From: Croceivirga sp.
GTDB taxonomy: Bacteria; Bacteroidota; Bacteroidia; Flavobacteriales; Flavobacteriaceae
Reading direction: 5' to 3'
NCBI GenBank assembly: GCA_028281025.1
Contig: JANQKR010000048.1
Location: forward strand, 62,001-126,000
Length of the DNA stretch: 64,000 nucleotides
Position 1 is the first letter of the stretch. Each line of letters opens with the position of its first letter. The translations under genes and the position numbers were made by a program. The notes beneath the pieces are model-generated. The model did not search any database and was not told where the DNA came from. It worked only from the letters and a program-made list of their open reading frames with translations. This document shows, piece after piece, positions 4,027 through 64,000 of the stretch.

Positions 4027-6753
4027 ATGAAAAAGATATACCACTTTTTATTTGCGGTCCTTTTACTTGGTTGCATTGATAATGATACGGACAAGCCATA
4101 TAGTGAATTTGAAGAAACCGTTACCCCTGTTGAAGAACCGGAAATACCTGAAGACCAACTGGATTTGGTAACCGTAAATGTAAAGGTAAGCCTACCCGAA
4201 GGTTCTTCGCTATCGGAAGAAGACCTATTGGTTTCTTCCCTGCTTACCGCTGATATTCCAGTTGTTGGTGGAGAAAGCGCTGTAAATGTGTTCGAAGGAG
4301 GGGGCTATGAAATGTATTTCGCGGAGGATTCCGCTGGGAATATCGTTTTGATGAATTATTTTAATCCAGCCACGAACCAAGGCAATGATCTAAATTCCAC
4401 TACAACCGCCATTGCAATGGTCATGCTCCAACCTTGGGTTACTGATTTGAGTGCTGGAGCCAAAGATGAACTCATAGCGTCCCTAGGGTCCTATCCGGAA
4501 TATACTTCTTTAATTCAAGAAATTGATAATGCCATAATTTCTGGTGGCGGAACACTTTTAAACGATGGGGTACAAGAAAAACTGGATGAATTGGTGGGTC
4601 GTTTGATTGCCCTAAACCTGTCGACTTCGAAAAGTTCAAAAGCTGGGAACCAGGTCAAAGATCCACTTGAAATCAATGTTGAGGATGGAAACGTTTCAAT
4701 CACCAATAAAAGTGCAATGGCTTACGGCATTAGAGTCAATGATCAAACACCTCAACTAATCGATGGTGCAGATAAAGATCTCTTGGGATTTTCCAATTGG
4801 TCCGGTATTCTGGATGGAAACTTTGGAACTCCAAAAACATTGTCCATTACTTTGACTTCTTCGCCCCCATATGACATTGTCTGTGATAGCGGATCTCCTT
4901 TTGCGGAAGGTTCCGCAACCATTCCTTTGGCCCAATACTACAACGTTGGTAAAATTGCTTTGGATGTCTTGAGTTTGGTTTCTCCCGTATTTAAAATCAG
5001 TGATAGCGATTGTATCAATGCAATTGGCACATCCATGATTTCTCAAAACAGTCAACTCTTAATTGTAAATAATGGTAATGATCTATATTTAAGAATATTG
5101 GAGGTGCTTTCCAAAATAGGTGGGGACATTATAGGCATCCTTGAGAGCTGCGGTACTAACCAAAGTACGCTTTTTGGAGCCATAAAGGCGGACAAGGTCC
5201 TTAAAGTTTTGGCGGCGGCGAACTTGGCGCTTAAAGCAAAAAACGTTACCGAACTCGGAATAAATCTGTATGACTGGTATCGCTATGATTCACCAATTGA
5301 TTTTTGTCTGGATGATAAACAAGGTGAATTGGGCATTTGTGAAAACTTAAGTATAGTCCAAGAGTTGGATTTTGGTAAAATACCTGTTGGTGCAGGAATA
5401 GAAATCCAAAATAGTTTTATCCTGGAAAATGCCTCGCAGGAGGATGTTACTATTGACAATATCTTTTTTCCAAACGCTAATTATATCTTGTCAGATGGTC
5501 AGGACAATTTGATTGTTCAGGTTGGCCAATCGCTGGAAATTTTTGTGGAATACCTACAACTAGATCAACAGGAACCCGGTGGGGAAATAGAAATATTTAC
5601 AAGTTTGACATCGAGCCCTGAAGACGTTTTAAAAGTTCCCATACAAGGTTCAATAATTGATCCCTTGGAAATTGGAATTTCGGGATCGTCATCGAATCAA
5701 TTGGATTTCCCCGAGGTACTCTTGGGAAATTCCTTCACACAAGAAATCATACTCAGAAATACTTCCGATTATGAAATAAGCGTACTAAATCCAGGAAGCA
5801 GTAACACTTTGGTGGATGGCTTCAATTATCCATGGGAATGGTCCTCTCTTGCTTTAGCGGGTAATTCCGAAACAATTTTGCAAATTACATTTGATCCTTT
5901 AAGTGCCAGGCAATATTCTGAGACTATTGAATTTATATCAAATAGCACTCAGGCCCCTTTATCGTTGGTACTTACTGGAGAGGGTGTAGAATCATTTGTT
6001 TCCGCAATCATTGAAGGGGACAATCCGGATTTTGGTCAGGTAGATCTGCAATCATCGGTATCAAAAAGGTTGGATATCACCAACAATTCCAATAGCGAAG
6101 AGGTTACAATAACTTTTGTGGCCAGTAATTCCAATGATTTTACTATTGATTACACCAATTATAACGCAACTTTGGCTCCCAATCAATCTACTTCGGTGAC
6201 CATTATATTCAGTCCTCAAAGTGCGGGGCCAAAAAGTGGTGAAATTGTAGTGGAAACGGATATAGCAGGGAGTTTTTCGTTACAGGTAACTGGGGAAGGT
6301 ACAGAAAATAATACCATAGATATATTCGGGGAATGGACACCTACATGGGAAGTGGCTCAATGCGATATCCTCGGCACTTACTGTTGCGGATGTTCATTTC
6401 ATCAAAACGCACGCAATTTTATATTTGAGGGACCAAATACATACATATGCGCTTCAAACCAAGTTTGTGGTGAACTGAATTGGCAAACCCAGCAAATTGG
6501 AAGTTCCGATAGACCTATCACCAACGAGTGGACGATCACCGTAGCGGATGACCTGTCACTAACGTTATCCATTACCATACGAAGTGGCCAAACAAGCGGA
6601 TTCCAATTTACCGATAGAACGTTAACGTGGGAAGGAACATATGATCCGGAAACGGATTCATATACTGGGGAGTATGAAGCTAATTTTTATGGTGGCCTAA
6701 TAATAAGTGCAGAAGCACGTGGTACATTGACGCTACAACGAGTCCAAAATTAA
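4027..6753 (+). CDS. large lipoprotein with Hydin/ASH-like (choice-of-anchor D) repeats
   Basis: 908 residues with a lipobox at Cys16 (VLLLGC). Residues about 40-430 form an unassigned region. From about 440 to 760 there are three repeats of an ASH/Hydin-type beta-sandwich, each with a xLDFGxxxxG-like start (LDFGKIPVG, LDFPEVLLG, PDFGQVDLQ) followed by an xxNxS strand, as in choice-of-anchor D proteins. The last about 140 residues form a separate domain with a Cys-rich beginning (CDILGTYCCGC) and a beta-rich end. It is probably surface-exposed and adhesive or structural; this is inferred from domain type only. Confidence 0.65.
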   Translation: MKKIYHFLFAVLLLGCIDNDTDKPYSEFEETVTPVEEPEIPEDQLDLVTVNVKVSLPEGSSLSEEDLLVSSLLTADIPVVGGESAVNVFEGGGYEMYFAEDSAGNIVLMNYFNPATNQGNDLNSTTTAIAMVMLQPWVTDLSAGAKDELIASLGSYPEYTSLIQEIDNAIISGGGTLLNDGVQEKLDELVGRLIALNLSTSKSSKAGNQVKDPLEINVEDGNVSITNKSAMAYGIRVNDQTPQLIDGADKDLLGFSNWSGILDGNFGTPKTLSITLTSSPPYDIVCDSGSPFAEGSATIPLAQYYNVGKIALDVLSLVSPVFKISDSDCINAIGTSMISQNSQLLIVNNGNDLYLRILEVLSKIGGDIIGILESCGTNQSTLFGAIKADKVLKVLAAANLALKAKNVTELGINLYDWYRYDSPIDFCLDDKQGELGICENLSIVQELDFGKIPVGAGIEIQNSFILENASQEDVTIDNIFFPNANYILSDGQDNLIVQVGQSLEIFVEYLQLDQQEPGGEIEIFTSLTSSPEDVLKVPIQGSIIDPLEIGISGSSSNQLDFPEVLLGNSFTQEIILRNTSDYEISVLNPGSSNTLVDGFNYPWEWSSLALAGNSETILQITFDPLSARQYSETIEFISNSTQAPLSLVLTGEGVESFVSAIIEGDNPDFGQVDLQSSVSKRLDITNNSNSEEVTITFVASNSNDFTIDYTNYNATLAPNQSTSVTIIFSPQSAGPKSGEIVVETDIAGSFSLQVTGEGTENNTIDIFGEWTPTWEVAQCDILGTYCCGCSFHQNARNFIFEGPNTYICASNQVCGELNWQTQQIGSSDRPITNEWTITVADDLSLTLSITIRSGQTSGFQFTDRTLTWEGTYDPETDSYTGEYEANFYGGLIISAEARGTLTLQRVQN

Positions 6754-51261: not shown

Positions 51262-54200
51262 ATGAAAAACAGTTCCCATACCAACACATACCACAAAATG
51301 CTCCCGATTCTTGCAGTCATGATACTGTTTGCTTACAACGACCTTTATGGCCAGTTGATTGGCGATACATCGGTAAACCTGGGTGATGTAGAAACTTATA
51401 CCCTTAACAGAGGTGATGTCACCTATGCCGAATGGGATGCGGGAGGGGTAATCACAAGTTCGAACAACACCAGCGCCACGGTACGATGGAACATTCCAGG
51501 TACTCAGCCCTTGGTAGTTGTATACGAGACTATGGGCGTCGGCGGAAATTTTTCGATAGTTGAAATTGACGTAACGGTTGCATCCGTGCCTACTCCCGTA
51601 CCTGGTGCCCCGTCCATATCCAACAATGGCTGTGGCCAGGCCTTGCTCACGCGAAACGGCTCACCACCAGAGGATGTTGACTGGTACTGGCAGGGAAAGG
51701 ACAGCAACGGCACCCATATCAATAGGGGAAAGGGTACCACCTTTGTCGCCAATGAGGGTACGGGAACCTATTATATCCGGGCCTACCATACCGGCAGTGC
51801 CCAATGGAGCACAAGCTCCGGGTCGCGTTATGTTTCCATCGTCAACCTTGGTGCAGGGTCCATTACCGGGACCCAGACCATTTGTTACAATGGCAATCCC
51901 ATTGCGCTTGGCAATAGTGCTTCGGCCAGTGGTGTCAGTGGGAGTGTTGCCTACCAATGGCAATATTCCAACACCGGCAGCAGTGGTTGGACGAACATCA
52001 GTGGAGCCACCGACACCACATATGATCCCCCTTCAGGGCTTACGGTTTCAAGATCGTACCGTAGGCGTGCCCAATGTGCATCCCAGACCAGATATACGGA
52101 TCCTGTAACGGTGACTGTTCGCCCAACGCTTACGCCGGGGAGCATCAACGGGACACATACCATCATATTTGGAGGGAACCCGAATACCTTGGGGAGTAGT
52201 GCCTTGCCCAGTGGAGGCAATGGGAGCTACAGCTACCAATGGCAGGAATCCACCACTGGAGCCGGTGGCTGGACCAACATCAACGGGGCCACGGACGCCA
52301 CTTATGACCCCCCACCAGGGCTTGCCGCCTCAAGATGGTACCGCAGGGGTGCGACATCCTGTAACGAGACCAAATACACAGATCCTGTAACGGTGACCGT
52401 GAATCCCTTGTTCAATCCCGGGAGTATTACAGGTACACAGATAATAGTATATAATGGCAACCCGGACATCTTGGAAAATAACAGTTTCCCCAGTGGGGGC
52501 GATGGCAACTACAGTTATCAATGGCAGTACTCCTACAGTGGCAGCGGTCCCTGGTCCGACATTGAAGAGGCCACTTTAGCCAGCTATGACCCTCCTGCGG
52601 GGATTACCTCTTCCCTATGGTATAGAAGGAGCGTTGTATCCTTTGGGCAGACCAAATACAGCAATTTGGTTGAGGTGACGGTAAACCCATTGTTCAATCC
52701 GGGCAGCATCTCGGGAACGGACACCATTTGCCATGGTGTGGACCCAGATATTTTGGGCAATAGCGCATCGGCCAGTGGGGGCGATGGCAACTATGCCTAC
52801 CAGTGGCAATACTCCGACGATGGCAGTAGTGGCTGGACCGACATCAATGGGGCCACTGCCAGCATCCATAATCCTCCCGTGGGATTGACGGCTTCCCGAT
52901 GGTACCGTAGGCGTGCCATGTCCTTTGGAGAGACCAAGTACAGTAATTCGGTCGCGATAACCGTCACACCGGCCTTATCCACCCCTATCTTGGCCTCTAC
53001 GGTCAACAATTGTGGAGAGACCGTCCTTACCATGGGCACTGCACCGACGGGTGAGATCTGGTATTGGCAGAACACCTTTGGGGGCAAAAGCACCTCCAAT
53101 GCTGCAAGCTCGGTAACCAGGACCAGTGGGACGGTATACTATCTTAGGGCAAGGAGCGATAGTGAAGACTGCTGGGGCACATCATTGACCATAGACTATA
53201 CGGTCAACCAAAATGTAACCTGGTATGCCGATACGGATGGTGATGGTTTTGGAGACCCCAATGTATTCGTTCAGAACTGCTCCCAACCGGCAGGTTATGT
53301 TACGGACGACACCGACTGCAATGATAATGATGGAAGCGTACATGTGGAGACCACATGGTATCTGGATGCCGATGGTGATGGCCACGCTTCGGACAGTAGA
53401 TTGAACTGTGGCAGTCCGGGAGTAGGATGGACCGACCAGCCAATGAATGTTGATGATTGTAACGATAGTGCCCATTCCCCTGCCAACGATTGTTCCGTGC
53501 CAACCGATCCTTTAGATCAGAACTATGTCTATACCCGCACGTATCAAGGGCGGACACAGCAGCCCTACGTAGGGTATTTTGTGGAGCACGACTCCCTAGT
53601 ACAGCACATCACCTATTTTGATGGTCTGGGCAGGCCTATGCAGGAAACTGCCATAAAACAGACCCCAAAAGATGGAAATGGAGTGGCCTATGATATCGTG
53701 ACCCATATTGCGTACGACGATTATGGTCGGCAGGCGATGGAATGGTTGCCCTATCCCGATTTAAATGCCGCTACGGCCATGGGCTCGTACCGCCCCAATA
53801 CCGCCCAAGCGGTGGAAATGGCCACCAAGCAATACTATAGTGACCATTATGCCAATGATTTTCAGGGGATTATGAATGTTGCGGACATTACGGCCTATTC
53901 GGAAAAGGAATTTGAACCCTCTCCCCTGAACCGGGTTCAAAAACAGGCTGCCCCTGGTCATGATTGGGCCATGGGCCAGGGCCATGAGATCGTATTGGAC
54001 TATGCTACGAACAATAGTGGCGATGAGGTAAGGCAATTTGAAGTTACGGTTGTCCCCGTAACCCAGAATACGGTTACGACCTATGTTCCCTCCTTGATTG
54101 AAAATGGGGATTATGGGGTGAGGGAACTCTTTAAAAACAGTACCTATGACGAAAACTATACTACGGACAAGAACCATTCCGTGGAAGAGTTCACCAACAA

Positions 54201-57200
54201 ACAAGGTCAGGTGGTATTGAAGCGGACCTATGCGGACATCCCTCCCATGGACAGGAACGGGGATGGGGACACGCTGGACCCTGGGGAGGAAGCCCGACCC
54301 GAGGAACGGCACGATACCTACTATGTTTACGACGACCATGGGAACCTTAGTTATGTACTACCGCCCAAGATGGAGGGTAGCTCGGCTACCCTGGCGGAAA
54401 TCAACAGTGCCATGGACGAACTGGGGTATCAGTATGTCTATGACCACCGCAACCGTTTGGTGGAGAAAAAATTACCTGGGAAAGGCTGGGAACACATTGT
54501 GTACAATAAACTGGACCAGCCCATTATGACCCAGGACAGTGTACAGCGGGTCACAGGCGAGTGGCTCTTTACCAAATACGATGCCTTTGGCCGAGTGGCC
54601 TATACGGGCAAGGCCATTGATGGTCGAGGCCGTACACAATTAAAGGAGGATGCCGATGCGGTGGCCGACGACCCAAACCAAAAGCTATGGGTAGAGGCGG
54701 CTAGCTTCACCAACGGCGGCATCGATATTGGCTATGGCAACACGGCTTACCCGACAGCAACGGTTACCGAGGTCTTGACCGTTAACTATTATGATGGTTA
54801 TAGCTTTGACCTGGCCAACGAACCAGCACCACCATCCAGGGTTTTCTTTGAACCGTTGGATGACCGTACACAGGGTCTCGCCACAGGTACCAAGGTCAGG
54901 GTACTCGATGTCTCACCCGCGAGGTGGATTACGACCGTGACGCGATATGACGCCAAGGGCAGGTCGATTTATACCTATTCGGAAAATGAATACTTGGCCA
55001 CTGTGGATTTAGTAACCACGGATATGGACTTTGTGGGCCGTCCCCAAAAGGTACGTACCGCCCATACCCGCAACGGGACCACAATTGTGACGTTGGACAA
55101 TTTCACTTACGATCATGTGGGGCGCCTACTTACCCAAACGCAGTGTATTGGGGATGGGACTATGGGAGATAGCTGTGATGGCGTTGTGGATGGTGAAGGT
55201 GTGGGGATTGACCCCATAATCAATGACCCCCTGGTGGACAAGGATAGGGTGGCCACCCTTAACATCACTTTAAGGGCACCCCAAGGACAAAGTGTTATTT
55301 TAAGGCCAGGACTTAGCGGATCGGCAACATTGCGCGTAGATCCGAATGCCACCCCAGGCGGAACGGGAAGTCCAGCGACCAGCGCGGAGGAATTGATCGT
55401 TTATAACGATTATGATGCCCTGGGCCAATTGGTACAAAAAAAGGTAGGGGGTGACCCCGGAACGGACTTTAATACTACTTCTGGACTACAGACCGTGGAT
55501 TATGCCTATAATGTAAGGAATTGGCTACGTTCCATATCCTCGAAGAACGCCGACGGCTCCGAGGGATTGTTCCAATTTGGGATAAACTATAATACCGTAT
55601 CGCACGGTGGGACACCGCTCTACAACGGCAACATTGCCGAGACGGAATGGAGGACAGCAAATGCCGATAACTCATTGAGGTGGTACAGACATGGATATGA
55701 TGCGATGAACAGGCTTGTATCGTCCATCGACAATACCGCCGATCAGCGTTATAGCCTATCGAACGTATCATACGACAAGAACGGGAACGTGCTTGGCCTG
55801 ACAAGGAAGGGGCATTTGAACAGCGGGGGAAGTTCCTTCGGCAACATGGACGTGCTGGGCTATGTCTATGACAACGGTAACAAAGTACTCCGTATCAACG
55901 ATAGCGGTAACGACACCTATGGTTTCAGGGACGGTACGAACACCAATGACGACTTTGAATATGATCCGAACGGCAATCTAAAAATTGACCGTAACAAGGG
56001 CATCAACTCGATAACGTACAACCATTTGGACATGCCCACCTTGGTGGACTTCGGGGCGACGGGCAACATAGCGATGGTCTATGCCGCCGATGGTACGAAA
56101 CTCAAGAAAACGGCCAGTAACGGTACGGTAACGGAATACGCCAACGGGTATGTGTACGAGGGAGGCCAGTTGCAGTTCTTCAACCATCCAGAGGGCTATG
56201 TCCATAAGGATGGCAACGACTTCAAGTACGTGTACCAGTTCCGGGATCATGTGGACAACATCCGCTTGAGTTATACGGATAACAACGGCACTTTGGAGAT
56301 CGTGGAGGAGAACAATTTTTATCCATTCGGTGGAAAGATGAAGGGGTACAATACCAACGTATCTCCATTGGGCAACAGTACCGCACAGCGATGGAAGTTT
56401 GGTGGTATGGAGCTTGACAATAGCCTGAACGAAGCCATGGGAACTTACGATTTCGGGGCAAGGACATACGACCCATGGGGCATACGTTGGTGGAACATCG
56501 ATCCGTTGGCGGAGGAGATGAGAAGGCACTCACCATACAACTATGCCTTCAATAACCCCGTGTTCTTCCTTGATCCCGATGGGATGATGCCTTGTGAGAA
56601 TGGGGATTGCCCTGAAGGGCCCAAAACTGAAGAAGAATCTAGAAGTACCCAAGCAACGGGTAGTGCTCAAGGTACACACTCAGTAGAAACTGATAGTAGC
56701 TTTAGATTTTATGGCTACAAAGCAGAAGGACAGGTAGAGGGGGAATATGGGAAAATAAGTGGTAGCATATCAGGTTTTAGTGCTGGATATGAAGGAGAAA
56801 CTGAACCAGGTGGTGCGCATGGAAGTGCCAGTATCTATGGAGTAGCTGCTGAAGCAGAAGCTAGATTAGGAACAGAAGATAACAATATTGCAGTTGAAGG
56901 AGAAGGAAGTGCATTCAAAGCAGAAGTTAGCGGGGATATTGGTCTTTATACAGGAGAAAATGGAAAAATTGGTGGTGAGATTGGCGCAGAGGCAGGAGCG
57001 TATGCCCTTGAAGGGGATGTCACCCCATCAATATCAATAGGCGGTCTTAAAATAGGTTTTACAATTGGAGGATCTGTTGGGAGTGCTCATGCGGGAGGCA
57101 GAATGGCGGGCACTTATAATAAGGAAACCAAAGAAGGAGAAGCGACATTTATGTTTCATGCTGGTTTGGGAGCTGGTGCAAAAATTGGTTTTTCAATTTC

Positions 57201-57237
57201 CAATACCAGTCAGGAAGTGAATAGAAAGAGGAAATAA
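51262..57237 (+). CDS. large RHS-repeat protein with Ig-like repeats and glycine-rich C-terminal tail
   Basis: 1991 residues. Signal segment about 13-30. Four Ig/PKD-like repeats of exactly 94 residues (starts 199, 293, 387, 481; each GSIxGT, YxYQWQ, SRWYRR). Residues about 650-745 have two DxDGDGxG/TDCND metal-binding units. A DUF6443-like region follows (about 752-880), then RHS repeats. The core ends near 1774 with YDFGARTYDPWGIRWWNIDP, NPVFFLDPDGM. The last about 217 residues are unlike the core: low-complexity, rich in Gly, Glu and Ala (GEIGAEAGAY, GAGAKIGFS), encoded by more AT-rich DNA, as in exchangeable polymorphic-toxin tails. No known catalytic motif is visible in it. Confidence 0.85.
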   Translation: MKNSSHTNTYHKMLPILAVMILFAYNDLYGQLIGDTSVNLGDVETYTLNRGDVTYAEWDAGGVITSSNNTSATVRWNIPGTQPLVVVYETMGVGGNFSIVEIDVTVASVPTPVPGAPSISNNGCGQALLTRNGSPPEDVDWYWQGKDSNGTHINRGKGTTFVANEGTGTYYIRAYHTGSAQWSTSSGSRYVSIVNLGAGSITGTQTICYNGNPIALGNSASASGVSGSVAYQWQYSNTGSSGWTNISGATDTTYDPPSGLTVSRSYRRRAQCASQTRYTDPVTVTVRPTLTPGSINGTHTIIFGGNPNTLGSSALPSGGNGSYSYQWQESTTGAGGWTNINGATDATYDPPPGLAASRWYRRGATSCNETKYTDPVTVTVNPLFNPGSITGTQIIVYNGNPDILENNSFPSGGDGNYSYQWQYSYSGSGPWSDIEEATLASYDPPAGITSSLWYRRSVVSFGQTKYSNLVEVTVNPLFNPGSISGTDTICHGVDPDILGNSASASGGDGNYAYQWQYSDDGSSGWTDINGATASIHNPPVGLTASRWYRRRAMSFGETKYSNSVAITVTPALSTPILASTVNNCGETVLTMGTAPTGEIWYWQNTFGGKSTSNAASSVTRTSGTVYYLRARSDSEDCWGTSLTIDYTVNQNVTWYADTDGDGFGDPNVFVQNCSQPAGYVTDDTDCNDNDGSVHVETTWYLDADGDGHASDSRLNCGSPGVGWTDQPMNVDDCNDSAHSPANDCSVPTDPLDQNYVYTRTYQGRTQQPYVGYFVEHDSLVQHITYFDGLGRPMQETAIKQTPKDGNGVAYDIVTHIAYDDYGRQAMEWLPYPDLNAATAMGSYRPNTAQAVEMATKQYYSDHYANDFQGIMNVADITAYSEKEFEPSPLNRVQKQAAPGHDWAMGQGHEIVLDYATNNSGDEVRQFEVTVVPVTQNTVTTYVPSLIENGDYGVRELFKNSTYDENYTTDKNHSVEEFTNKQGQVVLKRTYADIPPMDRNGDGDTLDPGEEARPEERHDTYYVYDDHGNLSYVLPPKMEGSSATLAEINSAMDELGYQYVYDHRNRLVEKKLPGKGWEHIVYNKLDQPIMTQDSVQRVTGEWLFTKYDAFGRVAYTGKAIDGRGRTQLKEDADAVADDPNQKLWVEAASFTNGGIDIGYGNTAYPTATVTEVLTVNYYDGYSFDLANEPAPPSRVFFEPLDDRTQGLATGTKVRVLDVSPARWITTVTRYDAKGRSIYTYSENEYLATVDLVTTDMDFVGRPQKVRTAHTRNGTTIVTLDNFTYDHVGRLLTQTQCIGDGTMGDSCDGVVDGEGVGIDPIINDPLVDKDRVATLNITLRAPQGQSVILRPGLSGSATLRVDPNATPGGTGSPATSAEELIVYNDYDALGQLVQKKVGGDPGTDFNTTSGLQTVDYAYNVRNWLRSISSKNADGSEGLFQFGINYNTVSHGGTPLYNGNIAETEWRTANADNSLRWYRHGYDAMNRLVSSIDNTADQRYSLSNVSYDKNGNVLGLTRKGHLNSGGSSFGNMDVLGYVYDNGNKVLRINDSGNDTYGFRDGTNTNDDFEYDPNGNLKIDRNKGINSITYNHLDMPTLVDFGATGNIAMVYAADGTKLKKTASNGTVTEYANGYVYEGGQLQFFNHPEGYVHKDGNDFKYVYQFRDHVDNIRLSYTDNNGTLEIVEENNFYPFGGKMKGYNTNVSPLGNSTAQRWKFGGMELDNSLNEAMGTYDFGARTYDPWGIRWWNIDPLAEEMRRHSPYNYAFNNPVFFLDPDGMMPCENGDCPEGPKTEEESRSTQATGSAQGTHSVETDSSFRFYGYKAEGQVEGEYGKISGSISGFSAGYEGETEPGGAHGSASIYGVAAEAEARLGTEDNNIAVEGEGSAFKAEVSGDIGLYTGENGKIGGEIGAEAGAYALEGDVTPSISIGGLKIGFTIGGSVGSAHAGGRMAGTYNKETKEGEATFMFHAGLGAGAKIGFSISNTSQEVNRKRK
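51856..52983 (+). repeat. four in-frame tandem repeats of 282 bp (94 residues) in the RHS gene
   Basis: Repeat starts at residues 199, 293, 387 and 481 of the RHS protein, spacing 94 residues each time. Shared features are GSIxGT, GNSxSxSGGxG, YxYQWQYS, GWTxIxGAT, DPPxGL, SRWYRR and KYxDxVxVTV. Equal spacing argues for recent tandem expansion or active recombination. Confidence 0.8.
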
Positions 57238-57244
57238 CAAAGGA

Positions 57245-57610
57245 ATGATTTTTATTTATGTTCTATTTTTTGCGATTTTGAATCTTTTGATTTTTTCGTA
57301 TTTGACAAAAAAAATACCGTTAAGCGTTGGTATGAGGATTGGCTTAATTCTTCTGCTCATAGTTATGGTAGCGCTACATTTTTTGGATTTTTGGAAAACA
57401 TCGATTTCTGACCAGAACTTTTACCAACTAGTGATTTTTAGTGCCATTCTTTTCATATTCCATTTTGGGAGTGAATTACCTATTTTGGTAATGAAAAAAA
57501 TAAATCCAAAATTTGAAAATCATTTGGCATTTTCGGGGTTCAATTTTATGAGGTTTTATCTGGTATACGTATTGGTGTATTTATCTCAATTAATTTATTT
57601 GCTCCATTAA
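57245..57610 (+). CDS. small polytopic membrane protein, candidate immunity protein
   Basis: 121 residues with about four membrane segments (about 2-20, 27-45, 56-75, 98-118). It begins 7 bases after the RHS gene that carries the exchangeable-type tail, in AT-rich DNA like that tail, and has no motif known to me. In polymorphic toxin loci the gene directly after the toxin usually encodes immunity; a membrane immunity protein would suit a membrane-acting toxin tail. That is inference from position only. Confidence 0.6.
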   Translation: MIFIYVLFFAILNLLIFSYLTKKIPLSVGMRIGLILLLIVMVALHFLDFWKTSISDQNFYQLVIFSAILFIFHFGSELPILVMKKINPKFENHLAFSGFNFMRFYLVYVLVYLSQLIYLLH

Positions 57611-57650
57611 CAATCAATTGGTTTAAAGAGGATTTTAATACAAACTGTGT

Positions 57651-58145
57651 ATGAGATTATTGATTTATATTCTAGTCATATTGAATACGGCAAGCTGTCA
57701 ACAAAGCGATAAAATAAACCTTGACAGGAAAGATTTCTCCATATCATATCCTTCTCACCTAAATCTAGACGATAGCGGAAAAGAAGGAACTGCATTTATT
57801 TTGACAGCAGAAAAAGATGATGTGAATGACATTTTTGTTGAAAACATTAATTTGGTTATAAGTGATGCGGGAAACGTCAGCTTCAATGACTTTGTTGCTA
57901 AAACGGAAAAGGAAGTTGGCAGTGTCGCCAATATCGTTGAAAAGAAGTTCCTGAAAGTAAATGGTAAAGAATGTTTTAAATTAAAACTGACAACATCGCA
58001 AAACGGTACTGATTTAACGTTTATCCAAAATTATTATGTTGAAAATCAAAAAGTTTACGCTCTAACTTTTTCAAGCGAAACAAGAAAATTCAATGACTAT
58101 TTTGAGGAAATGAATGAAGTGCTTTTAAGTTTTAAAATCAAATGA
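57651..58145 (+). CDS. DcrB/PsbP-like lipoprotein, candidate second immunity gene
   Basis: 164 residues. Lipobox ending in Cys16 (LNTASC). The mature domain starts FSISYPSHLNLDDSG and has VNGKECFKLKLT, followed by QNYYVENQKVYALTFSS, a pattern of the DcrB/PsbP (DUF1795) fold. It lies 40 bases after the membrane gene and before a terminator at 58180, so both belong to the tail end of the RHS transcription unit. Periplasmic lipoproteins act as immunity factors in some contact toxins; unproven here. Confidence 0.6.
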   Translation: MRLLIYILVILNTASCQQSDKINLDRKDFSISYPSHLNLDDSGKEGTAFILTAEKDDVNDIFVENINLVISDAGNVSFNDFVAKTEKEVGSVANIVEKKFLKVNGKECFKLKLTTSQNGTDLTFIQNYYVENQKVYALTFSSETRKFNDYFEEMNEVLLSFKIK

Positions 58146-58179
58146 AACATCAAAATAAGAACTTCTAATTAACTAGAAT

Positions 58180-58206
58180 CACGGCATTGATGTCGTGGTT
58201 TTTTGC
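58180..58206 (+). terminator. rho-independent terminator closing the RHS unit
   Basis: CACGGCAT (58180-58187) pairs with ATGTCGTG (58190-58197, one G-U pair) and is followed by a T-run. It lies 34 bases after the lipoprotein stop and marks the left limit of the mobile element. Confidence 0.75.
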
Positions 58207-58245
58207 TTACGAATAAAACTTATCAACAGCTTTTGGGCAGAGTTC

Positions 58246-58269
58246 TATCCCCCTCCGACCCCTGTCCTT
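58246..58269 (+). repeat. left arm of 24-bp inverted repeat
   Basis: Contains TATCCCCCTCCGACCCC followed by TGTCCTT. The reverse complement occurs at 59884-59907 with 23 of 24 bases matching. The arms bracket 1.6 kb holding both folded regions, the XRE gene and the SLOG gene. Confidence 0.7.
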
Positions 58270-58328
58270 GCTTTTTCCATTGACCCCGTCCCCGCTTGTT
58301 GGGGGTGCGGGACGGTTTCGGGAGGGTA

Positions 58329-58534
58329 AGGGCGGTGGCCACAGGGCATAAAATTTGGGTGGCTAGTTGGCAAATTTTGATGCCCTGTAAAGGCCGTTGC
58401 CACAATGTCGCCCTGCGCTCGGTCTTCTACTGCAATTTTCACTTTATGAACCATTTTCCCATAATGAAGACCGAACGTGCAGGGCTGCCATGGCCTTGGC
58501 CTTTTGCCCCGTTGCACGGGGCGGCCACCGCCCT
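58329..58534 (+). ncRNA. folded region with four-way junction, possible structured RNA or recombination site
   Basis: P1 AGGGCGGTGGCC (58329-58340) pairs perfectly with GGCCACCGCCCT (58523-58534). Inside it, P2 (58341-58357 with 58371-58388, one bulge), P5 AAAGGCC (58389-58395) with GGCCTTT (58498-58504), and P4 GCCCCGT-TGC-ACGGGGC (58506-58522) join P1 with zero or one linker base, making a closed four-way junction. P3 (58410-58427 with 58466-58485) is stacked under P5. The P2 loop (GGTGGC) could pair with GCCAC at 58399-58403 as a pseudoknot. There is no supported ORF in it. Strand and function are undetermined. Confidence 0.5.
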
Positions 58535-58566
58535 AACGAGGGAATTTCCATTTTTTTGATGGTCGG

Positions 58567-58709
58567 TTTTGTCCATATTTGCATTTTAAAGGACAATATT
58601 GTCCATTGTAATTTAATTACAACATTACTTCAACATTGATTTTTTGGTTTTATCCAAGAGTAGTCTTTTTTGTCTATTTTAATATTGCCATGTTTGGCTA
58701 TATTTGTCC
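58567..58709 (+). promoter_or_regulatory. operator/promoter region of the XRE gene
   Basis: Perfect 14-base palindrome GGACAATATTGTCC at 58591-58604, plus half-site-like TTTGTCC at 58568-58574 and 58703-58709. TATATTTG at 58699-58706 matches the Bacteroidota -7 box, 22 bases upstream of the XRE start; a -33 TTG at proper spacing was not seen. The arrangement fits autorepression by the XRE protein. Confidence 0.55.
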
Positions 58710-58727
58710 TATCTATCTTTAACAGGA

Positions 58728-59036
58728 ATGTCGGATTTTGGCGAACGTCTAAAAAAATTGAGGGAAGAGCGCAGTATTTCCCAATCCGAGCTTGCACGAA
58801 GGTTGGATACCAGTCCCCGAATGGTGTTGCGTTGGGAAAAATCGGAAGTCAAGCCGAGTGCCGACCATTTGGTCAATATTTCCAAGAATCTGGGCGTAAG
58901 CGTTGATGAGATCTTGGGGTTGGGCAGTCCCGACGATCCATTATTCCACGAACTGATGGCATTGGTCGCCCATCTGGACACTAAAAATCGACAGCTTATT
59001 TTGGATCTGGTGCGTGCCTTGGCAAACCCAACTTGA
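58728..59036 (+). CDS. XRE-family transcriptional regulator
   Basis: 102 residues from ATG 58728 (the upstream ATG at 58704 is less likely). A Cro/CI-type HTH covers about 4-60: FGERLKKLREERSISQSELA, RRLDTSPRMVLRWEKSEVKPS, NISKNLGVSVDEILG. The C-terminal part (LFHELMALVAHLDTKNRQLI) is probably a dimerisation helix. Palindromic sites lie upstream, so it probably represses its own promoter and perhaps the element's mobility genes. Confidence 0.85.
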   Translation: MSDFGERLKKLREERSISQSELARRLDTSPRMVLRWEKSEVKPSADHLVNISKNLGVSVDEILGLGSPDDPLFHELMALVAHLDTKNRQLILDLVRALANPT

Positions 59037-59040
59037 ATTA

Positions 59041-59096
59041 GCGTTCAGGCGTTCAGGCGTTCAGGCGTTCAGGCGTTCAGGCGTTCAGGCGTTCAA
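59041..59096 (+). repeat. seven tandem copies of the 8-mer GCGTTCAG
   Basis: Six perfect copies (59041-59088) and a seventh with one change (GCGTTCAA, 59089-59096), beginning 4 bases after the XRE stop. Short, gap-free units of this type can be iterons or slippage-prone tracts; too short and spacer-free for CRISPR. Confidence 0.85.
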
Positions 59097-59151
59097 AACT
59101 GATCTTTCCATATCGGGATTCCAAATTTTCTGTCCTAAAATATCCATTAAA

Positions 59152-59168
59152 AACAGGCAAAGCCTGTT
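59152..59168 (-). terminator. rho-independent terminator of the SLOG gene
   Basis: AACAGGC (59152-59158) pairs with GCCTGTT (59162-59168), flanked by T-runs on the minus strand. It is 15 bases after the stop of the minus-strand SLOG gene. Confidence 0.65.
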
Positions 59169-59183
59169 AAAAAAAGGTGACGG

Positions 59184-59546
59184 CTAAGAAGCCACCACCT
59201 TTGTGGGAAGACCCAGTTTTTTGGCGGTTTTGATAACGCTGATGGTGCCTTTGGACGATGCCAACGGGAACGCCAAAAGCCCGTGGCCCATGGAGAGCAT
59301 GAAATTGTTGCGGATAGGCCCCGCCGCCTTGCCGAACTGGTGCCACTTGGCGGGGACGACCAGACAGGGGACGTGGTTGTTTGCCGCCCATTGCTGTACC
59401 AAATGATCTGCGCCCTTTGCACCACCGCTGACCAAAACAAGGTTGGGCTGTTTGTTAAGGGCTTGTTGCAGGTGTTTTGCGATGGTTTTGGGGTTGTTGT
59501 AGTTGCGAGAGCCTGAAACGACTAGAAAAAAAGCTGATGTTGCCAT
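59184..59546 (-). CDS. SLOG-family (DUF2493-like) nucleotide-binding protein
   Basis: 120 residues from ATG at 59546; the open frame extends upstream to 59681 but through the folded region, and MATSAFFLVVSGSRNY is the natural beginning of the fold. Motifs: VSGSRNYNN, SGGAKGADHLVQQWA, AKWHQFGKAAGPIRNN, the Rossmann-like pattern of DprA/SLOG-type proteins that bind nucleotides or ADP-ribose-type ligands. Such genes are frequent in phages, plasmids and defence islands. Here it runs opposite to the other element genes, with the long hairpin region directly upstream. Confidence 0.75.
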   Translation of the reverse strand: MATSAFFLVVSGSRNYNNPKTIAKHLQQALNKQPNLVLVSGGAKGADHLVQQWAANNHVPCLVVPAKWHQFGKAAGPIRNNFMLSMGHGLLAFPLASSKGTISVIKTAKKLGLPTKVVAS

Positions 59547-59557
59547 GATGTTATGTT

Positions 59558-59768
59558 TTAAAATTACGGGCATCCATCTGCCACCGAAAACGGCATTGGG
59601 GCAAAACTTTGCGGATATATTTTGGCCTTTTAAAAGGCTCTTTGGCAACCGTCGGAGATATTTGTTGCCCGTTAATGCCAAAGGGACACGGTGTTCCCAA
59701 AATATATGCGCAAACTTCGTACAGTTTTGACCGTATGCCGTGGTGGCTACATTTGCCCCTGATTTTAA
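59558..59768. other. long imperfect hairpin (211 nt) upstream of the SLOG gene
   Basis: Successive matching arms in nested order: TTAAAAT/ATTTTAA (59558-59564, 59762-59768), GGGCA/TGCCC, GCCACC/GGTGGC (59580-59585, 59742-59747), ACGGCAT/ATGCCGT (59590-59596, 59735-59741), CAAAAC/GTTTTG (59602-59607, 59724-59729), an 18-bp arm pair with one mismatch (59608-59625, 59697-59714; core ATATATTTTGG) and CTTTGGCA/TGCCAAAG (59640-59647, 59676-59683). All pairs are colinear, so the whole region folds into one long bulged stem. Its lower end is 11 bases from the SLOG start codon. Confidence 0.5.
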
Positions 59769-59883
59769 GACATGACATGGTGGCGATACTCTTTTGCAGG
59801 CTTGTAAAACGGTTTTTGCAGACCACTTTCCACGATCGTCATTGAAAAAAACACGTCCACGCTTCGGTAAAAACAGCCCAAGG

Positions 59884-59907
59884 AAGGGCAGGGGTCGGAG
59901 GGGGATA
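59884..59907 (-). repeat. right arm of 24-bp inverted repeat
   Basis: Contains GGGGTCGGAGGGGGATA; reverse complement of 58246-58269 with one mismatch. It is about 100 bases upstream of the primase/helicase-like gene. The rest of the gap 59769-60005 shows no gene. Confidence 0.7.
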
Positions 59908-60005
59908 TTTGATGATAATCGTCTGTTTTACAATGCACTACTGTTGATATGTTCGTTTTTTTAAGGCGGTGTTTTTGGCGTACTTCGGCCATAAAAACAA
60001 CGATA

Positions 60006-61598
60006 ATGGATTCGGATTTTACGCCCAAAAAGCACCAAATCGACTTTTCCAAGGCGGTCGCCTCCAAGACCGATCATGTGTTCAAGCCCCTGCCCGATGG
60101 TGGGCTTCATTATTCCCATAAAGGGATCGACATCGAGGTGCTTGGCGAACCCAAGGGGTTGCCCACATCCTTACTGGTCGGGTTACGATTGTACCGAACT
60201 GGGGAACGTTCTTCGGCACGGACGTACCGCATTCCCCTGATCGACCTGTTCGACGGTGATGCCACGGGCAAACTGGTGTCGGAGGCCTCCCGGACCCTTG
60301 AACTTCCGCCCGATACACTATCGGCCATTATCCACAACTTTATAGACCTGTTGGAAGCCAAGATGGCACGGTCAACCAAAACGGATGCCGTCCCGTTGGA
60401 CAGCACATTAAGGAAAGAGGCCATGGCGGTACTGTGCAAGGGCAATATCGTCATGAACCTTGCGGGGCTTATGGATCGGGCGGGGATGCCCGACCCCAAG
60501 CTGGCGATCCAATTATATCTCCTGTCGCTGTCAAGGATGTTGGACGAACCCCTGCACGGCATTCTGCACGGCGAGGGCGATATTTGCCGTCGCATCCTCT
60601 CGGAACTCTCGGCCTGTCTGCCCAAAAAGCATTTTTCGGAGTTCACCGCCATCAGTCCCCATGCACTTTCCTATCCCCCCGAACAGGGGTTTTGGAAGCA
60701 CCGTACCTTGGTGCTCTACGGACTTGAAGGTGGCAATAAAAGCACCCTGACGGAGTACCTCCTAAAAGGACGTTCCCGTAGGCTGATCGCACATCGGGAC
60801 GAGAAGGCGGGCTACCGTAGCCGTGAACAGGCATTGGAGGGGCCGATACAATTGTTGGCGGCCACCGACAAGGATCTGCACCCTGCATTTTACGGGGCAT
60901 CGACGGTAACGCTTCCCGTGGAAACGGCATCCATCGCACAAAAGATATACGAGGCGGACATCCGTAGGTTGGCGGGTCTGGAGGATACGGGACAGCGGGA
61001 ACACGCCCAAAAATTGTTACAGTCCCTACCGTCGCTGTTGTCCCCGATGGTGGCGATAAATCCCCTTGTGGAACAAATATCGCTCGAAGGGCTGTTCGGT
61101 CAAGACCTTTCCCGCACGGGGCTTTTTTTAAGGCTCTCCCATGTGATCGCCGTGCTCGACCAGTACAATTGCGGAATGGAGAACACCGCCAAAGGTGAAG
61201 CGGTCATTGTGGAAGCCAAACACATGGCACTGGCCCTCGAACTGTTCAGCGAACTATGGATAAAAAAGGTGGACGAACTCCATTTTAGGTTGCGAAGCAC
61301 ACATAAAAGGTTGACACAGCTCATTGCCGAACGGGACGGTCAGGTGATGTCCAAAAAACCGTTCACGGCAAGGGAGGTGCGCAAAGCCTTGGGACTGTCG
61401 CCCGCCACGCTCCAAAGGCATCTTTCCTCCCTAAAAAGCTACGGAACCATCGAGATATGCGGGGGCAACCGTGCCAAGGGCTACCGTTACCGATTGGTGG
61501 AACACGCCCCGCCAAGACAACAAAAGGAGGCTTTTGACGGTCTTTTGACGGAACTCCAAGGCCACGGCGAGGATCCTGGGGAACAACGTGCCTCGTAA
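60006..61598 (+). CDS. mobile-element protein, primase/helicase-like with winged helix (P-loop lost)
   Basis: 530 residues from ATG 60006 (in-frame ATG at 59949 is less likely). The order of parts resembles helicase-like proteins associated with element primases: an N-terminal part ending IDLFDGDATGKLV and helices, LAGLMDRAGMPDPKLAIQLYLLSLSRMLDEPL, then HGEGDICRR where a P-loop would be expected, later RDEKAGYRS and LEGPIQLLAATDKDLH, and a C-terminal winged helix (TAREVRKALGLSPATLQRHLS, KGYRYRLV). The absence of GxxxxGK[ST] means ATP use is doubtful. Replication or regulation of the element is inferred; the match is from pattern memory and uncertain. Confidence 0.5.
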   Translation: MDSDFTPKKHQIDFSKAVASKTDHVFKPLPDGGLHYSHKGIDIEVLGEPKGLPTSLLVGLRLYRTGERSSARTYRIPLIDLFDGDATGKLVSEASRTLELPPDTLSAIIHNFIDLLEAKMARSTKTDAVPLDSTLRKEAMAVLCKGNIVMNLAGLMDRAGMPDPKLAIQLYLLSLSRMLDEPLHGILHGEGDICRRILSELSACLPKKHFSEFTAISPHALSYPPEQGFWKHRTLVLYGLEGGNKSTLTEYLLKGRSRRLIAHRDEKAGYRSREQALEGPIQLLAATDKDLHPAFYGASTVTLPVETASIAQKIYEADIRRLAGLEDTGQREHAQKLLQSLPSLLSPMVAINPLVEQISLEGLFGQDLSRTGLFLRLSHVIAVLDQYNCGMENTAKGEAVIVEAKHMALALELFSELWIKKVDELHFRLRSTHKRLTQLIAERDGQVMSKKPFTAREVRKALGLSPATLQRHLSSLKSYGTIEICGGNRAKGYRYRLVEHAPPRQQKEAFDGLLTELQGHGEDPGEQRAS

Positions 61599-61676
61599 GC
61601 CACCCCAAAGGTCTATCATCCGTAAAGCCCCATTTTCACTGGGACGAACAAGAAAAATGAGATACCAAGAACGTAT

Positions 61677-62579
61677 ATGAAGAAACATCCCAGACTACCT
61701 GAATTTAAAAGGTTGCTCCAACGCTACGAACAAAGAAAGATGGACGAGGGGTTATCGCCCGAACGTATAAAGCACCTGAACTATATGGCCTCGGAAGTAT
61801 TGGCGTTTTTGGAGCAACAAGAAGTTTTATCGGTGGGGGAAATCAAAGGGGAACATTTGGAGGCCTTTATGTTCAGGTTACGGCAACGACCGCACCCAAG
61901 AAGGGCGGGCGGACTATCGGCATCCTACATCAACAAGTACCGAAGCTCGATAAATTCCCTGATGGCCTTTGCGCTAAATGCACGGGCATCCCCTTTTTAT
62001 CTGCCCTCGATGAAGGACAGGAAACTGGATCCCAAAAAAGTACCGACCGTTGCACAGGTGCAACGTTTGTTCCAAAGCTGTGGGGACAACCTTTTGGGCG
62101 ATCGGGACAGGGCGTTGCTCGCCCTGCTCTACGGCTGCGGGCTTCGCCGTGGCGAGGCGCATCTATTGGATATTGGGGACGTTGACCTTGCCCGTGGCTC
62201 GGTATGGGTCAGGCGCAGCAAGACGGGCGCACAGCGGCTCGTACCGCTATCGGCGGGGACAAAAAAACATTTGGAACGCTACCGATTTAGGGCAAGGCCG
62301 TTGTTGGCCCCGCACGGCGGTACGGAAAACGCCTTTCTCGTATCAAAGTACGGCAAAAGGCTGTCCAAGGTGGGCGTTGCCCACAGGGTAAAGGAACTGT
62401 GCAGGGAAGCGGGGATCGGGGGCATCACGGCCCACGGCCTGCGCCATGCCATTGCCACCCATCTATTGGACAGCCTTCCGTTGGAGGACATTGCCCGTTT
62501 CCTTGGGCATACCTCTTTGGACAGCACACAGAAGTACACCCATGTCAATATGGTTCAGAACAAATGGAAAAAAGAGTAG
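61677..62579 (+). CDS. tyrosine recombinase/integrase (catalytically complete)
   Basis: 300 residues. N-terminal SAM-like core-binding domain (about 1-115), then a phage-integrase catalytic domain with all residues: Arg in GCGLRRGEAHLL, Lys in RRSKTGAQRLVPL, HxxR in AHGLRHAIATHLL, His in LGHTSLDSTQKYTH and the nucleophile Tyr in QKYTHV. It cuts and rejoins DNA through a 3'-phosphotyrosine intermediate. It overlaps the next recombinase gene by 16 bases, and the two are probably produced together. Confidence 0.9.
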   Translation: MKKHPRLPEFKRLLQRYEQRKMDEGLSPERIKHLNYMASEVLAFLEQQEVLSVGEIKGEHLEAFMFRLRQRPHPRRAGGLSASYINKYRSSINSLMAFALNARASPFYLPSMKDRKLDPKKVPTVAQVQRLFQSCGDNLLGDRDRALLALLYGCGLRRGEAHLLDIGDVDLARGSVWVRRSKTGAQRLVPLSAGTKKHLERYRFRARPLLAPHGGTENAFLVSKYGKRLSKVGVAHRVKELCREAGIGGITAHGLRHAIATHLLDSLPLEDIARFLGHTSLDSTQKYTHVNMVQNKWKKE

Positions 62580-63433
62580 CCGAAAACTTCAAAGACCATC
62601 TATATAAAAGAGGTCTGCACCACACAACCGTAGCAAAATACCTTCGGCACGTAAAACGCTTTAAAAGTTGGTGCAACGCTTCCAAGGTGGATTTTGACCA
62701 TCCTTCCAAGGATGATTTTTATACCTACAAAAGGGACTTTCCGAACATCGCCCCGATCACTTGGTCAGAGCGGTTCTCCGCCCTGCGCCATTGGTATCGG
62801 TTTACCAAATCCACGGTGGACGTTCCTTTTATCAAGGTCATAACAAAGGGCAAAATTGCATACGATGGATTGTTGGACGAGGAAGGATTGTTGCAGCTTT
62901 ACAATGCCGTTCCCGCATCCACCTTGGTGGGCGGGCGCAACAAAGCCGTGGTATCGCTGATGGTCTTTCAGGCACTCGACCGCAAGACCATATCATTGTT
63001 GGAGCCTTCACACTTGGACTTGGAGGGCGGTACGCTCTCCGTTCCCGCCATCGCACGTACCAACGCAAGGATCCTTCCCCTGCACCCTGCACAGGTTCCC
63101 GCCCTGATGGACTATGTACACCGATGCCATGAACCGTTATTGACAGAACAGGGAATGAAAGACAGTCCTTATCTATTTGCCATGTGCGGCGGTGCCGCCA
63201 GCTTCCAGTCGAGCGTTACCCGTTACCTTCCCGAACTGCGCAAGAACTTCCCCGACCTACGGGACTGGACACAGGTACGGCAGAGCCGTATCATGGTATG
63301 GATAAAGGCGCATCCGCTCAGGAAAGCCCAGTACATGGCGGGGATAAAGCACATATCATCAATGAGGTGCTACGCACAGGGCGACATCACCGAACTAAAG
63401 GAACTGATCGTAAAACACCATCCGTTGGGTTAG
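62564..63433 (+). CDS. second tyrosine recombinase-like protein (degenerate active site)
   Basis: 289 residues from ATG 62564, overlapping the end of the first recombinase gene by 16 bases; the frame is open further upstream but lies in the other gene. N-terminal core-binding domain is recognisable (FKDHLYKRGLHHTTVAKYLRH). In the catalytic region the HxxR position reads RQSRIMVW, and the first Arg position is displaced (ALDRKTI), whereas GIKHISSMRCY keeps a His and Tyr. It is probably inactive or altered, acting as a partner of the complete enzyme, as in heterodimeric recombinase pairs. This is inference. Confidence 0.75.
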   Translation: MEKRVAENFKDHLYKRGLHHTTVAKYLRHVKRFKSWCNASKVDFDHPSKDDFYTYKRDFPNIAPITWSERFSALRHWYRFTKSTVDVPFIKVITKGKIAYDGLLDEEGLLQLYNAVPASTLVGGRNKAVVSLMVFQALDRKTISLLEPSHLDLEGGTLSVPAIARTNARILPLHPAQVPALMDYVHRCHEPLLTEQGMKDSPYLFAMCGGAASFQSSVTRYLPELRKNFPDLRDWTQVRQSRIMVWIKAHPLRKAQYMAGIKHISSMRCYAQGDITELKELIVKHHPLG

Positions 63434-63461
63434 CAATCCTTCAAATTAAACCGTAAATTAG

Positions 63462-63513
63462 CCTTGATGGAATCCGCCTATGGCGGAGGATGTCAAGGTT
63501 CTTTGACTTTTTA
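63462..63513 (+). terminator. compound hairpin and terminator after the recombinase genes
   Basis: TCCGCC-TAT-GGCGGA (63473-63487) is enclosed by CCTTGA (63462-63467) and TCAAGG (63493-63498) with symmetric 5-base bulges; an overlapping GTCAA...TTGAC stem leads into a T-run at 63509-63513. It can end the recombinase transcript. The bulged hairpin also resembles a recombination-site shape. Confidence 0.6.
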
Positions 63514-63568
63514 AAAACTCCAAACTCGTCATTCTGAACTCTGAACTTGCAACCGCACAAGCTGTAAG

Positions 63569-64000
63569 GTACGGGGTTGGTTAACGGATATCAACAATGT
63601 GGGGAACACCAATAAATTGTTTAATTTTAGTGTGGGTTACAACCAAGGCCCCAATCCATTGTACAACGGCAATATTAGCCAGACCCAATGGAGGACGGCC
63701 AATAGTGACGACAGTTCTTTGAAATCTTATTTGTATACCTATGATGCGCTCAACCGGATTACTCAGGCCACGGACAATACGGGCTATTTTAATCTGGGAA
63801 GCTCAACAAATCCTGTCATTTATGACAAAAATGGGAATATCCTAAAGCTGAAACGTGAGGGCTGGACGGTTGCAAGTCCTTCACTAGCTACCAGTACAGG
63901 CTTTGGGACTATGGACGACCTGATGTACAGCTATGCCCCTAACAGCAACAAGTTGATGAAGGTTGCCGATGCCGCGGCTATTGACCAGTTTGGGTTCAAG
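63569..64000 (+). CDS. RHS core fragment without 5' end, running off the window
   Basis: Open to the window end (144 codons) without a start codon of its own. It begins VRGWLTDINN and includes PLYNGNISQTQWRTANSD, YTYDALNRITQATDN, NPVIYDKNGNILKLKREGW. It aligns with the 1991-residue RHS protein from about residue 1417 (VRNWLRSISS, PLYNGNIAETEWRTANAD, HGYDAMNRLVSSIDN, YDKNGNVLGLTRKGH), but the two are clearly different sequences. It directly follows the mobile element, so it is either an orphan core-tail module of the RHS exchange type or a gene cut by the element. Confidence 0.75.

Follow-up and report, generated by a model that had tools for sequence, protein, structure and literature searches.

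The 206 bases of DNA that we call Fold1 form a real and extreme structure. Minimum-energy folding yields -110.95 kcal/mol on the + strand (z -8.0) and -114.7 kcal/mol on the - strand (z -10.1), and none of 200 shuffles per strand was equally stable. Fold1 lies in a 64-kb stretch of DNA, analysed over its whole length and hereafter called the window, within a mobile element, namely an RHS toxin-tip cassette that encodes two tyrosine recombinases and the primase-related protein P549 (Table 1). A location inside a recombinase-bearing mobile element had been proposed by an earlier, sequence-only reading of this DNA, and it is confirmed by the two tyrosine recombinases encoded there. As to what Fold1 is, we tentatively favour a DNA-level palindrome belonging to a nested module, i.e. 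a hairpin or cruciform site, rather than the attachment site of the cassette. This reading is possible but far from assured, and three others are weighed against it below.

Table 1. Features of the cassette and its surroundings (positions in the window)
Feature	Position	Strand	Remark
RHS gene	51262..57237	+	Rhs_assc_core; C-terminal tip presumably part of the cassette
Small gene after the RHS gene	57651..58145	+	PsbP-like; presumed immunity or cargo
Terminator-like hairpin and T run after the small gene	58177..58205	+	seen by eye; missed by consensus scan
Left arm of 28-bp inverted repeat	58246..58273		brackets, with the right arm, Fold1, XRE, YAcAr and Fold2
Fold1, four-way-junction fold	58329..58534		both strands fold
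XRE-type repressor gene	58725..59036	+	begins 190 nt past Fold1
Hairpin overlapping the YAcAr stop codon, then T run	59174..59201	-	terminator-like; z -3.3
YAcAr, 121-aa DUF2493/SLOG (YspA-like) protein	59184..59549	-	PF10686 match, 67 bits
Fold2, second large fold	59548..59778		ends at the YAcAr start codon; common to Maribacter
Right arm of 28-bp inverted repeat	59880..59907		inverted copy of 58246..58273
P549, 549 codons	59949..61598	+	weak C-terminal HTH match, below Pfam cut-off
Y1, tyrosine recombinase	61677..62579	+	XerC/XerD profiles score highest
Y2, second, divergent tyrosine recombinase	62567..63433	+	
Displaced (orphan) RHS tip, start	63569..64000	+	homologous to RHS residues 1418 onwards

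Structure of Fold1 and the search for relatives

Every helix described in the sequence-only reading, which had proposed four helices with a further stem (P3) on P5, was recovered by minimum-energy folding. P1 has 12 pairs (58329-58340/58523-58534), P2 has 17 pairs and one bulged base (58341-58357/58371-58388), P5 has eight pairs including one G-U (58389-58396/58497-58504), and P4 has seven (58506-58512/58516-58522); inside P5, helices of 4, 11 and 9 pairs correspond to P3. The junction contains a single unpaired base (58505), exactly as had been claimed, and the P3 arm, known from one sequence only, shows two unpaired bases on one side (58475-58476). Altogether, the + strand forms 68 pairs (42 G-C, 23 A-T and 3 G-U) and the - strand 77 (44 G-C, 29 A-T and 4 G-U). 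DNA energy parameters leave the helices nearly unchanged, and identical helices are retained when 331 bases of context are folded (z -6.2). That chance is a very unlikely source of the fold, as had been argued, is upheld by the shuffles reported above and by a separate shuffle test (z -8.4 and -9.1, with 0 of 100 per strand equally stable). Moreover, when 206-nt segments were scanned across the 64 kb (step 26, n=2454), the one at 58319 came out lowest in mean energy as well as in GC-corrected score.

One proposed feature is unsupported, namely a loop-to-strand pseudoknot pairing GTGGC with GCCAC. The former (58359) does belong to the loop of P2. GCCAC, however, occurs three times (58338, 58399 and 58524); two copies are located in P1, one of these continuing into P2, and the third has four of its five bases engaged in the P5 arm.

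The fold had also been placed outside described RNA families, with which Rfam agrees: there are no matches in the window at gathering scores, and the single match at E <= 1 over 58200-59960 is sub-threshold (22 bits, cut-off 55) and falls at 58540-58625, outside Fold1. A lack of conservation outside the strain had been named as a point that would refute the fold, and we found no conservation in the sampled family genomes, plasmids, phages and fetched loci. Among 397 sampled genomes of the family, a DNA search with the 1811-base region returned no believable Fold1 homologue, only the own genome and short matches. As only two candidates per genome were scored in the family searches, we repeated this one with a query specific to Fold1. 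The 261 bases around it matched 18 of the 397 genomes (E <= 0.01), at full length only in the own genome, the matches in the other 17 spanning merely 22-51 bases. Fifteen of these 17 were inspected as one set and the other two (L078 and L089) separately, and all were attributed to chance. Of the 15, 13 lie within open stop-to-stop frames of at least 173 codons (open frames being no proof of genes), and those in L129 and L137 (frames of 40 and 85 codons) were dropped because they span only 24-25 bases. The matches in L125, L127 and L130 encode HFMNPVP, as in 3-hydroxyacyl-CoA dehydrogenase; by eye, L078 and L089 do so too.

Eight genomes congeneric with G162, the Maribacter genome discussed below, contained no Fold1 match (E <= 1e-4), and no homologue was detected among plasmids or phages. 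A covariance model of Fold1 alone, which is a weak probe as it was built from one sequence, was run on both strands of 35 sources (34 fetched loci and the window; 527,019 bases) and found only Fold1 itself; it had no match in the Maribacter locus L057, although L057 carries Fold2. Within these searches, Fold1 is without comparative support of its own, whereas the neighbouring Fold2 has some.

The nested module and its second fold

Fold1 may be part of a nested module of ~1.66 kb, in which a 28-bp inverted repeat encloses, in order, Fold1, the XRE gene and the DUF2493/SLOG gene with Fold2, and which would occupy the control region of the RHS toxin-tip cassette. The arms of the repeat are identical at 26 of 28 positions (local alignment score 46, against a shuffle maximum of 27, n=200), and its 22-base core, with up to three mismatches allowed, is present in the own genome in just these two copies. 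Eleven other units have an XRE match no more than 2 kb from P549, and in all of them the XRE gene is on the strand opposite to P549; in the window the two genes share one strand. An inversion of the segment between the 28-bp repeats would explain this arrangement. A candidate XRE remnant beside the left repeat was rejected: the frame in the window, ending in FYS (AYS, TYA or AYA in the other XRE proteins compared), is too short, and the L057 frame shows no resemblance to those proteins. Two further sequences were observed around the XRE gene. Upstream of it is a perfect palindrome, GGACAATATTGTCC (58591-58604), a possible operator, and between it and the SLOG gene are seven units of an 8-base repeat, GCGTTCAG, the last imperfect (59041-59096). 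Neither Fold2 nor the inverted repeat had been reported in the sequence-only reading.

Fold2, located ~1 kb downstream of Fold1, is equally striking. The segment 59540-59780 folds with -100.7 kcal/mol (z -8.2), and 59567 is the next distinct place after Fold1 by GC-corrected score among the 2454 scanned. The DNA search of the 397 sampled family genomes showed Fold2 to be common to Maribacter (G162:C7:5863-6112, 69% identity), where the copy folds with z -9.9. In the two-sequence alignment, 13 of the 54 predicted pairs have changed on both sides and yet still pair; no pair is disrupted, although broken pairs would tend to drop out of a consensus derived from just these two sequences. In addition, Maribacter locus L057 carries a perfect 374-bp inverted repeat around Fold2 (6479-6106 with 5437-5810), which makes a palindrome of ~1 kb. 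We read it as a fold-back duplication at the hairpin, although it may be an assembly artefact; such a rearrangement would be expected if the hairpins form in DNA. The Fold2 covariance model left Fold1 unmatched at E <= 1. The exact core pattern of Fold2 occurs in two stretches of the genome contigs, i.e. the Maribacter copy and one Saprospiraceae stretch (rejected, as it overlaps ordinary-looking reading frames), and in seven stretches of the viral contigs.

Relatives of YAcAr (E <= 1e-6) are present in four of 299 family genomes, including the own genome. One of these genomes, G067 (670 contigs, 8% contamination), belongs to a third genus, represented by this single genome, and contains three of them. 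Two are found in a 549-bp SLOG unit repeated in different surroundings with 93% identity (L109:5129-5677 and L110:5281-5829), and the third copy (L111:5313-5597) is devoid of the 5' part; all three stop at about the same base past the stop codon. In both full copies, a hairpin (z -6.7 to -8.6) ends at the start codon corresponding to that of the window, although a longer frame begins within these 5' hairpins. Since they were unmatched by the Fold2 covariance model, their likeness to Fold2 is one of place and shape, and not an established homology. Upstream of the more distant relatives in L112-L115, whose starts were placed approximately, the DNA is less structured or unstructured (z -3.4 to -0.4). 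The hairpin at the stop codon has z -3.3 in the window and -4.1 in L110, and is not clear in L109 (z -0.9). For the large hairpins of the window, L057, L109 and L110, the strand opposite the SLOG gene folds better in all four cases. DUF2493 relatives in general are common, with 933 records among phages and 346 among plasmids; no confirmed relative of YAcAr itself was found in the viral contigs.

In Fold2 and the two full G067 copies, though not in Fold1, a hairpin extends as far as the start codon of one small gene, as in IS200/IS605-like elements. Unlike in IS200/IS605, the small gene is DUF2493/SLOG instead of tnpA, and Fold1 ends 190 nt before the XRE gene; no HUH transposase TnpA family was detected among the seven element proteins scanned. 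If a SLOG gene does travel together with a covarying hairpin, the pair would make up a small mobile unit that has so far gone unrecognised, and we found no recognised description of DUF2493/SLOG units in the open-access literature. A bolder proposal, which we consider improbable, is that the nested module as a whole is a new mobile element, with Fold1 and Fold2 as working ends in single-stranded DNA, or as expressed RNAs. Both would then be handled by a DprA-like SLOG protein instead of a classical transposase, and the 549-bp SLOG-plus-hairpin copies would be the minimal form.

The RHS cassette and its junctions

The protein encoded upstream of the module matches TIGR03696 with 47.4 bits (cut-off 32.5), and the displaced tip of the window begins at 63569 (VRGWL), in correspondence with residue 1418 (VRNWL) of this protein (41% identity). 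Fold1 sits in the middle of the cassette and not at its ends. Terminator-like sequences are found in related units at a place equivalent to that of the hairpin following the small gene. Of the 397 family genomes, 22 have relatives of P549; the own genome is one of these, and is the only one to carry P549 among the 11 genomes of its genus. Of the 27 P549 proteins examined, 23 possess a P-loop motif, which is missing from L041 (first unit), L042, L043 and the copy in the window. The long relatives in L044 and L047 contain CHC2 zinc-finger and Toprim primase domains above Pfam cut-offs, and the four shorter relatives scanned matched no family above cut-off. No confirmed relative of Y1 was found in the genome contigs.

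RHS matches occur in 18 of the 25 fetched P549 loci, the others being L034, L043, L044, L045, L046, L047 and L057, the last of which has a long RHS-repeat frame by eye. Five loci (L047, L052, L053, L054 and L056) contain near-perfect tandem copies of the whole unit (6.8-8.1 kb, 99.1-100% identical). In all of them except L047, the repeated unit starts at or next to AACTACTATCC..TTTGG, which codes for NYYPFG. A junction at NYYPFG (DYYPFG in L051), preceded by an in-frame stop and with a AAAAAAACGCATA-like sequence on the element side, is present in 11 of 35 units from seven loci; in this count tandem copies are separate, and nine of the 35 units have less than 4.7 kb downstream, the shortest junction distance found being 4731. 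In these cassettes at least, a new RHS tip is thus brought in and the old one displaced. The tip displaced in the window begins at VRGWL and not at NYYPFG, so the junction of this cassette lies at another RHS motif. RHS-tip cassettes with two tyrosine recombinases and the primase-related protein were observed in L048, L051, L052, L053, L054, L056 and L059, as well as in the window (51262-63569).

Cassettes joined at RHS codons are a possible dedicated mechanism for RHS tip swapping. Such a recombinase cassette, exchanging tips at fixed codons, would offer a testable answer to the question of how polymorphic toxins change their tips, and we found no recognised description of RHS cassettes with tyrosine recombinases in the open-access literature. 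Polymorphic RHS toxins and their standalone toxin cassettes (PMC3482391) have the same RHS core, variable tip, small downstream gene and displaced tip. What differs here is that two tyrosine recombinases and a primase-related protein accompany the tip, and that several relatives insert at fixed RHS codons. Another comparison is offered by recombinase-associated acquired interbacterial defence (rAID), which PMC12247911 presents as a Bacteroidales recombinase followed by arrayed orphan immunity genes. The two systems share a tyrosine recombinase, immunity-type genes, conserved intergenic motifs and related host bacteria; unlike rAID, the present cassette has toxin tips, two recombinases and P549.

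Several other arrangements were noted in these loci. At L047:3372-20000, a P549-recombinase unit is tandemly repeated with near identity, and a long P549 relative there has primase-type N-terminal domains; this repeat does not start at RHS codons, and the P549-recombinase module may thus also move outside RHS genes. In the own genome, downstream of the displaced tip, a P549-like frame breaks off (by eye) at L040:2804-3020 and adjoins an oppositely oriented XRE gene, which may be what is left of a second cassette. A recurrent hairpin, CCCCCGCTAGCGCTCG..CGAGTGCCGTA..GAGTA with variants, often follows small genes (L040:3318 and 4014, L036:5067-6287, L038, L044, L045, L053 and L055). Its two copies in L040 flank one small gene, its strict form occurs four times in the own genome, and it is a possible cassette boundary. 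A strand-biased structured signal upstream of P549 in many units was rejected as an RNA family, as it largely consists of the terminator of the preceding gene and a recurrent small hairpin, and it does not enter the case for Fold1.

Possible roles of Fold1

As a DNA-level palindrome, Fold1 would most likely be active in single-stranded or supercoiled DNA, i.e. during replication, in an excised circle or during transfer. Its hairpin or cruciform would be recognised by a protein of the element, for which the SLOG protein, the primase-related P549 and the recombinases are candidates. That Fold1 is a functional folded-DNA site bound by an element protein is our inference. Pairing is symmetric on both strands and so does not separate RNA from folded DNA. 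RNA-maintained folds often show G-U asymmetry, and the lack of a clear strand preference in Fold1 weakly favours the DNA-level palindrome. This reading is further supported by the position of Fold1 inside an inverted repeat unique in the genome, by the 13 of 54 predicted Fold2 pairs that differ on both sides from Maribacter, by the perfect 374-bp inverted repeat in which the Maribacter Fold2 is centred, and by the hairpins preceding the SLOG gene in the two 549-bp copies of the third genus. Single-stranded intermediates would also fit an element with two recombinases and with primase domains in two long P549 relatives. Several points count against it. No Fold1 homologue was found that could show selection on its pairing; promoter-like sites exceed the shuffle expectation, and two of them face Fold1 from the - strand; the P549 of the window is devoid of the P-loop motif of most relatives; Fold1 lies mid-cassette, away from the ends, and its model finds nothing in L057; and the preference of the four Fold2-type hairpins for the strand opposite the SLOG gene hints at RNA, by analogy perhaps for Fold1 as well. 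Taken alone, Fold1 is a striking but isolated structure, and its setting would matter more. If it were a working folded-DNA site, tip swapping would be linked to single-stranded DNA.

Alternatively, Fold1 could be a non-functional palindrome, produced by inverted duplication or nested insertions in fast-changing intergenic DNA, with a shape that is not selected. We regard this as doubtful, but it is the strongest of the alternatives. No believable relative was found in the 397 family genomes (searched twice), plasmids, phages, or the 34 loci and the window, and the corresponding Maribacter region does contain a large inverted duplication. Nevertheless, a relic that still has all four nested helices, 68 pairs and just one unpaired base at its junction would need to be of recent origin, and Fold1 is the strongest of all 2454 segments scanned.

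Another alternative, which we consider unlikely, is that the element expresses Fold1 as a structured non-coding RNA, which might, for instance, regulate the XRE, SLOG or recombinase genes. Fold1 is a compact four-way junction, with z of -8 to -10 when folded as RNA, it adjoins a repressor gene, and its sister Fold2 has compensatory changes and folds better on one strand. In addition, a sigma-70-type scan of 58100-60050, in which Bacteroidota promoters are not modelled, gave seven promoter-like sites, where shuffles averaged 2.7 (sd 1.5). The - strand has two that face Fold1 (58633-58605 and 58612-58583), and the + strand two overlapping ones within its large loop; this result keeps the RNA reading open. 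However, sigma-70-type consensus scans are a poor fit to Bacteroidota promoters, the three terminator-like sites show no excess over shuffles (mean 3.6), and Fold1 itself has no clear strand preference, Rfam match or homologue.

Finally, the suggestion of the sequence-only reading that Fold1 is a recombination site, here an attC-like folded single-stranded site of both tyrosine recombinases, is the least probable of all: the element does encode such recombinases, the integron-integrase model matches Y1 (77 bits, far under its cut-off of 265) and Fold1 has a long stem with a two-base bulge (58475-58476), but relatives join RHS genes at NYYPFG codons (DYYPFG in one locus; 11 of 35 units, seven loci) far from Fold1, which is therefore probably not an attachment site, and its 206 nt exceed the 57-142 nt stated for attC sites in PMC2727003. 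Like attC sites, Fold1 is an imperfect palindrome that belongs to an element encoding tyrosine recombinases, and its one known sequence shows bulged bases. Compared with the single stem of attC, Fold1 is four-way and longer; it is also, unlike attC, about equally stable on both strands and away from the cassette boundary as located in relatives, whose junctions are at RHS codons, the displaced tip of the window starting near 63569; no excised form was observed. The P3 arm of Fold1 alone (58397-58494) is within the attC size range of PMC2727003.
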